Shown here: positions 43,282 through 45,934 of the stretch, in pieces | How positions within the stretch are numbered: position 1 is the first letter of the stretch | Layout of the letters: every line of letters begins with the position of its first letter | Assembly (NCBI GenBank): GCA_008363215.1 | Contig: RHKP01000020.1 | Span: forward strand, 1 to 64,000 | DNA length: 64,000 nt | Direction: 5' to 3' | Source: Cyanobacteria bacterium CYA | GTDB taxonomy: Bacteria; Planctomycetota; Phycisphaerae; Phycisphaerales; UBA1924 | Program-made: the position numbers and the translations under genes | Notes under the pieces: model-generated | Database searches by the model: none | What the model was told of the DNA's origin: nothing | The model's input: only the letters and a program-made list of their open reading frames with translations

Positions 43282-44082
43282 TTAGAATCGCTTGTGGGTG
43301 GGGCGTGAATCCGGGGGGCGCAGCCCGAGGATGGCGCGAACGAGGCGCACATCGGCGGGGCGGGTGATCTTGATGTTGCGCCGGTCGCCATCAACGACCA
43401 CCACCCGTTCGCCGAGGCGTTCAACCAGCGCCGCGTCGTCGGTGCTGTCAAGGTCCGGCTGGGTGTAGGCCCGTCGAAGCAGGTCGAGCGCGAAGACCTG
43501 CGGCGTCTGGACGAGCACCAGGTCGGCGCGGGGGAGGGTCTGCTCGACCGGGCGCAGCGCCGGTCCCGTGCTGGTCGCGCCGAGAATGGCGGCAATCGGG
43601 TCGTGCTGTCCGGAGGTGTCAATCGACCCGCCCACGCGCTTGAGAGTCTCGTCGACGGGGACGGCCGGGATGACCGCCGGGTGGTGGGCGGCCGCGTCGA
43701 AAACCCGGTCGATCAGTTCCGGTGGAGTGGCGGGACGGGCGGCGTCGTGAACAGCCACGTGGGTGTGATCGGTGCCGACGAGCGCGAGCGCCGCCTGGAC
43801 GGTCTGGTAGCGATGGGTCTTACCCCCCCGACAGAGGGTGATGCCGAAGAGTGAGAGTTTGTCCCCATGCCGGAGTTGGAACTCTTGGAAGCGGGCGTCA
43901 TCGTGAGGCCCGGCAACGATGATGGTGCCGACGTCATCGCGTGTATTGAAAAGTTCAACAGTGCGTTGGAGGACTGGCTTACCGCCAAGATCCTCATCGA
44001 GTTTCGACCGGGGTGCTTCCCGGGCGTCGGGGTTGAAGCGGGAGGAGGAGCCGGCGGCGGGGATGATGACGGCGACGCGCAT
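43282..44082 (-). CDS. ispD: 2-C-methyl-D-erythritol 4-phosphate cytidylyltransferase
   Basis: 266 residues from ATG 44082; the frame is open 28 codons further but the enzyme begins MRVAVIIPAAGSSSRF. The nucleotide-binding PAAGSSSRF and the KLDEDLGGKPVLQRTVELF block form the CTP site. VAVHDAARPATPPELI and VPVDETLKRV are family landmarks, and the terminal DRRNIKITRPADV closes the domain. It makes CDP-methylerythritol in the MEP pathway, ahead of ispE, which lies at 106. First gene of the gat operon by spacing. Confidence 0.93.
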   Translation of the reverse strand: MRVAVIIPAAGSSSRFNPDAREAPRSKLDEDLGGKPVLQRTVELFNTRDDVGTIIVAGPHDDARFQEFQLRHGDKLSLFGITLCRGGKTHRYQTVQAALALVGTDHTHVAVHDAARPATPPELIDRVFDAAAHHPAVIPAVPVDETLKRVGGSIDTSGQHDPIAAILGATSTGPALRPVEQTLPRADLVLVQTPQVFALDLLRRAYTQPDLDSTDDAALVERLGERVVVVDGDRRNIKITRPADVRLVRAILGLRPPDSRPTHKRF

Positions 44083-44126
44083 GCGGGTGATCCTAACCAC
44101 CTGTGGCACGGGAGAATGCCGACAGT

Positions 44127-44143
44127 GGGGGGGGGGGTATAAT
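44127..44143 (+). promoter_or_regulatory. G11 tract joined to a perfect TATAAT (-10)
   Basis: Eleven Gs (44127-44137) end directly at TATAAT (44138-44143). A possible -35 (GCCGACA) lies just before the Gs, so the tract would fill the spacer. Spacing is short (about 13), so the -35 is weak. The next start codon on this strand is 44312. Confidence 0.55.
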
Positions 44144-44197
44144 GGGTCGTCCGAATTTGCTTGCAAGCCGATTCCGGTAGCGCAGGCGGCTAGAATG

Positions 44198-44226
44198 AAA
44201 ACCCCATGCCGTTCTCTGGGGGTTTT
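44198..44226 (+). promoter_or_regulatory. hairpin in the 5' leader, attenuator-like
   Basis: AAAACCCC (44198-44205) pairs with GGGGTTTT (44219-44226), loop 13 bases, and the 3' arm ends in TTTT. It lies between the TATAAT candidate and the DUF11 lipoprotein start, so it may be a leader attenuator. Transcription is not proven. Confidence 0.4.
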
Positions 44227-44311
44227 GCGTATTGGATCTGTCTGTCGATCCCTTTCCCAAGAGCGACCCGGGCTTCGGGTGCGCTGGCCAAAGCACTATG
44301 GAGTACAAGTG

Positions 44312-45934
44312 ATGAGAGCGAAGTGGAGTATTTTCGGTGCGGCGTTGATGGCTGCATCCTTGCTGGTGGGGTGCCAATCTCAGGATGGCCGGGCAACCAG
44401 CAACGACGTAGATCGCGTCGCGGTCGACGTGGAGGGGCGTCAACCCGATCCGTGGTGGGATCCGACCCGTCCCGACCGTCGCGCCCGCGCGATCCGCGAG
44501 CCGGCTCCGGCCGAGCCCGCTCCGATCGTGAGCGACGGTCGCGGCAGCGTTTCGGCGGCCTACCCGACCGGCGATCCGCGTACCAGCGCCATTCTCGTCG
44601 AGAAGTTCTTCCCGCTGACGGTCAACGCGGGCGCTCCATTCGACTACGAGATTCGGGTGACCAACCTGACGAGTCTGGACCTGGACAACGTGCAGGTATG
44701 GGACAACGTGCCCAATAACTTCCGACTCGAGTCTTCAGACCCCAACGCCGACAGCACGTCGGGCAACAACCTGATGTGGATGCTTGGAAGCATGGGCCCG
44801 CGCGAGATCAAGACGATTCACGTCCGCGGCTCGGCTCCGGCCGAGGGCACGATTACGGCCTGCGCCAAGGTGGCGTATGACACGAGTTTGTGCAACGAGA
44901 TCACGGTGGTGCAGCCGGCGCTGTCCTTGGCGGTCGAGATGACGCCGGAGGTCACGATCTGCCAGCCGATCACGATCAAGTACACGGTGTGCAACAAGGG
45001 CTCGGGTCCGGCGACCAACGTGGTTGTCAACAAGACGCTGCCCGACGGGCTGACGGTCAACGGGTCGCGCGAAGTGCGCTTCACGGTCGATCGCCTGGCT
45101 GCGGGCGAGTGCCGTGACTTTGCGGTGCAGGCTCAGGCCGGCAAGACCGGGACCTTCTCGGTGGACGGCACGGCGACGGCCGAGCCGGGTCTGTCGAGTC
45201 AGGCCGCAGCCGTCGAGACGGTGGTGCGTCAGCCGGCGCTGACGATCGCGCTGGAATGCCCGGGCCGCATCCTGGCCGGCCAGAGCGTGCCGGAAGTGCC
45301 GATCACGCTGACGGTGGAGAACACGGGCGACACGGTTTCGGCCAACACGGTGATCGAGGCTCCGGTTCCGGCGGGGGCCAGTTTCATCCGCGCCAGCGAC
45401 AACGGCGTCAACGCGGGCGGAACGGTCCGCTGGGAGATCGGTTCGCTGGCCGTCGGCGCCAAGCGCACGGTGAGTTTCTCCGTGCAGCCGGGCGAACGCG
45501 GCACGGTGAACGCGACCGGTCGCGTGGTGGGCGAGTGCGCCAACGCGGCGACGGCCCAGTGCAGCACGGAAGTGCTGGGTATCCCGGCGGTGCTGCTGGA
45601 AGTGATCGACGTGGAAGACCCGGTGCGCGTGGGCACCACGGTGGTGTACCGCATCACGGTGACCAACCAGGGCAGCGCGCGTGACACGAATATCCGCGTG
45701 GCCGCGACGCTGGAAGACGAGGCCGAGTACGTGTCGGCCAGCGGGCAGCACACGACCAGCGGCAACACCATCACCTTCGCGTCGGTTCCTGTGCTGAACG
45801 CCAAGGAGCAGGTGACGTTCGAGGTGGTGGTGCGGGCGGTCAAGGCCGGCGACGTCCGCTTCGCGGTGCAGTTGAACACCGACGAACTGGGCCGTCCGGT
45901 GCAGGAGACCGAGGCGACGAACTTCTACGAGTAA
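44312..45934 (+). CDS. DUF11-repeat surface lipoprotein
   Basis: 540 residues. The signal WSIFGAALMAASLLVGC gives Cys21 as the lipid anchor. After a Pro/Arg/Asp-rich linker come four DUF11-type Ig-like repeats (about residues 95-200, 210-300, 308-430, 435-540), with recurring phrases such as YEIRVTNLTSLDLDNVQVWD, TVCNKGSGPATNVVVNKTLPDG, VENTGDTVSANTVIEAPVP and TVTNQGSARDTNIRV. Such repeats form rods on cell surfaces. ATG 44312 has GGAG upstream. A strong terminator follows at 45961, so it is monocistronic and probably highly transcribed. Confidence 0.85.
   Translation: MRAKWSIFGAALMAASLLVGCQSQDGRATSNDVDRVAVDVEGRQPDPWWDPTRPDRRARAIREPAPAEPAPIVSDGRGSVSAAYPTGDPRTSAILVEKFFPLTVNAGAPFDYEIRVTNLTSLDLDNVQVWDNVPNNFRLESSDPNADSTSGNNLMWMLGSMGPREIKTIHVRGSAPAEGTITACAKVAYDTSLCNEITVVQPALSLAVEMTPEVTICQPITIKYTVCNKGSGPATNVVVNKTLPDGLTVNGSREVRFTVDRLAAGECRDFAVQAQAGKTGTFSVDGTATAEPGLSSQAAAVETVVRQPALTIALECPGRILAGQSVPEVPITLTVENTGDTVSANTVIEAPVPAGASFIRASDNGVNAGGTVRWEIGSLAVGAKRTVSFSVQPGERGTVNATGRVVGECANAATAQCSTEVLGIPAVLLEVIDVEDPVRVGTTVVYRITVTNQGSARDTNIRVAATLEDEAEYVSASGQHTTSGNTITFASVPVLNAKEQVTFEVVVRAVKAGDVRFAVQLNTDELGRPVQETEATNFYE

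Follow-up and report, generated by a model that had tools for sequence, protein, structure and literature searches.

A G11 tract beside a TATAAT box in a planctomycete, and a family-wide class of candidate promoters with G or C homopolymer spacers

Introduction

The slippage of homopolymers in promoter spacers is known mainly from host-adapted pathogens. In Neisseria, a poly-C tract in the fetA promoter and a poly-G tract in the porA promoter lie between the -10 and -35 elements, and the length of the tract sets both the spacing of these elements and the level at which the surface proteins are transcribed, according to the excerpted text of PMC5320596 and PMC7864442. Several variants of this arrangement appear in the same portions of PMC7864442. 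In Treponema pallidum tp0126, a poly-G tract stands between -35 and -10, activity is best at a spacing of 17 and an OmpW homologue lies downstream. The Treponema genes tprE, tprG, tprJ and tprL have poly-G promoters with length effects; in tprL, where length variation was followed by fragment analysis, the run covers part of the -10 and leaves the spacing unchanged. In Neisseria opc, a poly-C tract lies over the -35.

Within the open-licence literature searched, we found no report of promoter-spacer slippage in planctomycetes, and the excerpts of PMC3711429, PMC4060949 and PMC5845749 hold no planctomycete case, the last using the term 'phase-variable' in an unrelated sense. An earlier note on the planctomycete sequence analysed here had drawn attention to a G-tract next to a -10 box, upstream of a gene for a DUF11-repeat lipoprotein. 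Here we examine this site in the window, by which we mean the whole stretch of 64,000 nucleotides that was analysed, and compare it with the genomes of the family.

Results

The G11 tract occupies positions 44127-44137 of the forward strand and directly touches a perfect TATAAT (44138-44143), as the earlier note had read it; this box is the -10 of a proposed slippery promoter, P1. Preceded by GT, the tract fills most of a 13-base spacer that begins after CCGACA (44119-44124, forward strand), a -35-like hexamer matching TTGACA in four of six positions and recognised from a spacing scan and from the placement of GACA before G8-TANNNT across 163 genomes. The last base of TATAAT is 55 bases from the start of a hairpin, AAAACCCC...GGGGTTTT (44198-44226, forward strand), with a CCCC/GGGG stem, and here too the position and sequence given previously are correct. 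Further downstream lies the DUF11 gene (44312-45934, forward strand, ATG at 44312), whose product of 540 aa has DUF11 repeats and, judged by eye, a lipoprotein-type N-terminus. Its divergent neighbour is ispD (43282-44082, reverse strand). On the reverse strand, seven bases 5' of the ispD ATG, there is a TAGGAT (44090-44095), found as TAGGAT or TAGAAT in two congeners, which suggests a leaderless ispD transcript. An Rfam scan of 43900-44500 gave three matches only, each under the gathering score and taken as chance.

On the forward strand between 44060 and 44320, no TANNNT other than this TATAAT has, at spacings of 10-21, a -35 with two mismatches or fewer. A homopolymer between -35 and -10 is found at this site solely if the imperfect CCGACA, with its two mismatches to TTGACA, is accepted as the -35, and the spacer of 13 bases is off the optimum of ∼17 in the assembled sequence. 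A standard scan for promoters with spacers of 16-18 had no match at the site. Judged by its -35 and its spacer, P1 taken alone is predicted to be a poor promoter; since 11 Gs give a 13-base spacer, it is expected to have little or no activity at the assembled tract length.

Long runs of G are in themselves unremarkable in this DNA. The window holds 6 matches to G8 where 6.15 are expected, and a manual tally found 22 runs of at least nine Gs in its genome, most of them with no TANNNT box after them. It is the setting of the G11 that is unusual: an order-1 Markov model predicts about 0.1 runs of at least 11 Gs or Cs per window, and about 0.002 sites per whole genome in which G8 is followed by TATAAT. 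The pattern GACA, 0-8 bases, G8, TANNNT occurs at 40 places in the 163 family genomes, the window site included, with one match for the reversed control. By comparison with the TTGACA searches, just 4 of these 40 sites lack TTGACA; accordingly, chance alone is unlikely to account for the window site, but the site is atypical.

Relatives of the DUF11 locus point to a different promoter. The orthologous proteins of two congeners, G001 and G002, and of locus L035 are 89%, 73% and 67% identical to that of the window, and all three lack a G-run upstream. G002 has TATACT aligned with the TATAAT of the window, and in G001 nothing similar is aligned. What all three share with the window is a -10-like box, TAGAAT in the window (44191-44196, forward strand) and TAGAAT, TACAAT or TACGAT in the relatives, followed by CCCC...GTTCT...GGGG. 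The simplest reading of this conservation would be a promoter, P2, whose RNA starts at or just before the hairpin, so that the hairpin would form the 5' end stem of the transcript. At spacings of 10-21, P2 lacks any -35 within two mismatches of TTGACA.

The hairpin had also been described as attenuator-like, and this description has not survived. The TTTT is part of the 3' arm of the stem and is followed by GCG, with no U-run past the stem; a terminator scan at the site found none; the fold, at -10 kcal/mol (z -1.12), is matched in stability by 23 of 200 shuffles; and the T-rich 3' arm is not conserved in the relatives. For a leader attenuator or terminator of the lipoprotein gene it could be said that the CCCC/GGGG stem is kept among the relatives examined, but with these four results against it we consider that reading hardly credible and rejected it. 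The hairpin itself is real, if unexceptional, and RNAalifold on the four sequences gave little covariation. A shared GTTCT element downstream of tract promoters was considered as well and dropped, with 1 case in 80.

Of 38 DUF11 orthologues, two, the window and G034, carry eight or more consecutive Gs or Cs in the promoter region; in this set, locus L009 offers hardly any upstream sequence, and several of the start codons chosen by script are doubtful. The G034 orthologue has the promoter sequence TTGACA-N5-G8-CCG-TAGACT.

Tract promoters as a class are nonetheless a feature of the family. We searched its 163 genomes for TTGACA, at most 12 bases, a non-G base, G8, at most 12 bases and TANNNT, taking the reversed pattern as the control. 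This gave 126 distinct sites in 63 genomes (130 rows minus four that represent a second -10 choice at the same site; two of the G004 sites are identical copies on two contigs) as against 2 control matches, and we are all but certain that the class is real as a sequence pattern. Its spacers measure 10-29 bases (mean 17.5, sd 3.0), with 104 of the 126 within 15-21 and 17 at 14 or less; the longest G-run per site is 8-18, and the run touches the -10, as it does at the window site, in 83 cases. A C-run version of the search returned 36 rows (35 distinct sites) in 25 of the 163 genomes and nothing for the control. With the -10 left out, TTGACA, 0-8 bases and G8 matched 44 of 100 genomes, with 10 single matches for the control. 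With the -35 left out, G8-TANNNT matched 134 times, in 57 of 100 genomes, and the control 50 times, a high background from which it follows that the -35 makes the pattern specific. Ordinary TTGACA-TANNNT pairs in the sampled loci peak at spacings of 16-18, a small sample with 11 of 26 there versus 3 of 26 for an ACAGTT control. Apart from the window site, the genome of the window has three TTGACA-tract promoters, at C1:107206, C8:4841 and C24:2487, and further long G-runs of the genus likewise have TTGACA on one side and a TANNNT box on the other.

On the scale of the phylum, the pattern is present in 37 of 392 genomes, with 3 control matches in all. Ten of the 392 belong to the same family, and three of those ten match, leaving 34 of 382 outside the family versus 63 of 163 within it. 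The class is thus commoner inside the family than outside and is not confined to it.

Six of the C-run rows lie, by their coordinates, on the opposite strand of a G-run site; at these six places in four genomes (two each in G053 and G047, one each in G046 and G103), a single tract stands between two divergent promoters. These shared tracts lie in L176 (G053:C1:1638300-1648000) and at G047:C13:52014, G047:C34:164136, G046:C270:5442 and G103:C11:10961. TTGACA stands on either side, and each -10 overlaps the -35 region of the opposite promoter.

The genes that follow the tracts, for which gene starts and export were assessed with simple scripts and gene calls were codon-based, include a family of ∼370-aa proteins with a hydrophobic N-terminal stretch and, by eye (alignment A2), a C-terminal one; examples are L094:1863-3008 (G000:C8) and L097:1350-2480 (G000:C24). 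Neither Pfam nor NCBIfam has a name for the members scanned, and homologues occur in 40 of 100 family genomes. When upstream regions were chosen by protein match, 30 of 68 (27 of 60 plus 3 of 8) had at least eight consecutive Gs or Cs in their promoter region, compared with the 2 of 38 among DUF11 orthologues; the fraction of 30 in 68 may be inflated by kinship, as this protein family was first met via tract promoters. In addition to 12 homologues first collected for their tract promoters, the 68 regions leave out partial matches as well as three at the start of a contig; the 30 exclude L244 (a run of 7), L245, L268 and the artefact-like L276, and include the artefact-like L219. Several homologues have ordinary tract-less promoters with 16-17 base spacers, and in the genome of the window just two of eight genes of this family have a tract.

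Pfam gave names to only part of the downstream proteins, namely pseudopilin-like proteins (N_methyl), one MauE-like and one FGE-sulfatase protein; others are, by eye, small Cys-rich secreted proteins. Of 74 proteins encoded downstream of tracts, 54 have a hydrophobic N-terminal segment, compared with 166 of the 424 other genes in these loci, so that exported products appear enriched downstream of tracts by this crude test. One exception is the tract in L115, which precedes an apparent plsX (named by eye), and the DUF11 gene itself is outside the typical genes of the class. In L175 and L177 (G053:C1 near 1,600,000 and 1,806,500), adjacent copies of a pseudopilin-like gene each have their own tract promoter, and AT-rich stretches lie 5' of the -35.

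Tract lengths differ between species, each represented by one genome; these are differences between species rather than within one. In two comparisons with alignable flanks, G9 in G118 faces G11 in G093, and G9 in both G122 and G123 faces G11 in G074; from TTGACA to past the -10 there is no further gap, and small gaps occur farther out. Between G000 and G001, the difference is one of shrinkage plus substitution (G9 vs G6TG). Two recent duplicate pairs in G053 have equal tract lengths and a third has G13 and G15. The tract of the window has no counterpart among its congeners. All 13 genomes tested, that of the window included, have MutS (MutS_I), which gives no indication of a raised slippage rate, and a lack of mismatch repair was rejected as the cause. 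Where very long runs of G or C occur at N gaps or at the ends of contigs, in L119 (G001:C4 near 148060-148220), L219 (G004:C13:1-573) and L276 (the end of G092:C4), they probably reflect sequencing or assembly trouble at tracts; as some tracts lie at gaps or contig ends, tract lengths in assemblies may be unreliable.

Discussion

The best reading of these patterns is that planctomycetes have a class of slippage-tunable promoters resembling those of porA and tp0126. In such a promoter, a homopolymer of G or C makes up most of the spacer between the -35 (TTGACA) and the -10 (TANNNT), and slipped-strand replication would add or remove bases, alter the spacer and turn transcription up or down, on the model of Neisseria porA and fetA and of Treponema tp0126. 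By this model, the tracts would slip within populations and expression would change with their length. At the window site, the G11 tract would form P1 as an extra promoter for the DUF11 lipoprotein gene, upstream of the conserved P2 (TAGAAT at 44191), and with 14-16 Gs its spacer would approach 16-18 bases. As judged from its sequence, the site probably belongs to the slippery-spacer class as an extra and currently mis-spaced promoter. For the fuller claim, that it is a member of the family class and tunable by slippage, we would put the chances slightly short of even, and the probability that it is a working slip-tunable promoter is likewise a little under one half.

The proposal of the earlier note, that a homopolymer in a promoter spacer may slip and so switch an exported protein, thus fares better for the clade than for the site that inspired it. 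At the level of the clade it agrees with the 126 sites against 2 in the control, with the 2-G differences between sister species (two comparisons) and with the crude enrichment of exported products. At the window site, the imperfect -35, the 13-base spacer, the missing G-run in three relatives and the conserved -10-like box downstream all weaken it.

These same points lend themselves to another explanation, in which the class is real elsewhere and the G-run of the window arose next to a TATAAT by accident in this one species; transcription of the lipoprotein gene would then depend solely on TAGAAT at 44191, with a transcript starting at or near the hairpin. The three relatives that keep a TANNAT box and the hairpin without any G-run fit this account, as do the quality of P1 and the rarity of runs among DUF11 orthologues (2 of 38, the window included). 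It is harder to reconcile with the placement of GACA before G8-TANNNT (40 vs 1 control) and with the ∼0.002 sites of G8 plus TATAAT expected per genome, and P2, on which it relies, comes without a -35 of at most two mismatches. We regard it as possible, if rather doubtful.

The tracts might alternatively have a fixed role in DNA structure (stiff or A-like DNA) or in recognition (by a special sigma factor) and be selected for reasons other than slippage. The strong preference for G over C (126 vs 35 distinct sites) and the frequent contact with the -10 (83 of 126) would be natural under such a rule, but a spread of spacers from 10 to 29, sister-species tracts 2 Gs apart and homologous genes that may use ordinary tract-less promoters would not, and we judge it unlikely. 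Sequencing or assembly artefacts, with poly-G called at gaps, may well explain individual runs, such as a G001 promoter with G51 and G22 flanking an N gap, the long C-runs of L219 and L276 at contig starts or ends, and certain tracts near contig ends (e.g. L193). As an account of the runs in general this is very improbable: a TTGACA-TANNNT placement ∼60 times above the reversed control is not expected of artefacts, tracts recur at orthologous places, and the tract of the window lies within unbroken sequence.

Returning to the slippage reading, one may envisage a clade-wide system in which slippery G or C spacers switch the genes of exported proteins (the unnamed membrane-anchored family, small Cys-rich secreted proteins and pseudopilin-like proteins), and in which, at the shared divergent tracts, one slip could re-tune two genes. 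We give this broader scenario an even chance. What would be new is not the mechanism, which has been described before, but its lineage, how many sites there are and the tracts shared by divergent promoters. If the scenario is true, free-living planctomycetes make large-scale use of the same simple device to diversify the proteins they export, and the unnamed exported proteins flagged by tracts are worth study as targets of shifting selection. Since tract lengths are easily measured, the idea is directly testable.

The closest described systems place these promoters in context. As in porA and fetA, the planctomycete homopolymers lie between -35 and -10, ahead of predicted exported proteins; they differ in belonging to another phylum, in forming a set that spans a family and precedes exported proteins most of which are unnamed, in being known here from sequence alone and, at the window site, in an imperfect -35 and a 13-base spacer. 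With tp0126 they share a poly-G tract between -35 and -10, and the mean spacer of the class, 17.5, compares with the tp0126 optimum of 17, although tp0126 was shown experimentally whereas the planctomycete class consists of sequence patterns and species comparisons. Unlike the tract of tprL, most planctomycete runs are inside the spacer, and several of the C-type runs resemble opc in that they start directly after CTTG.
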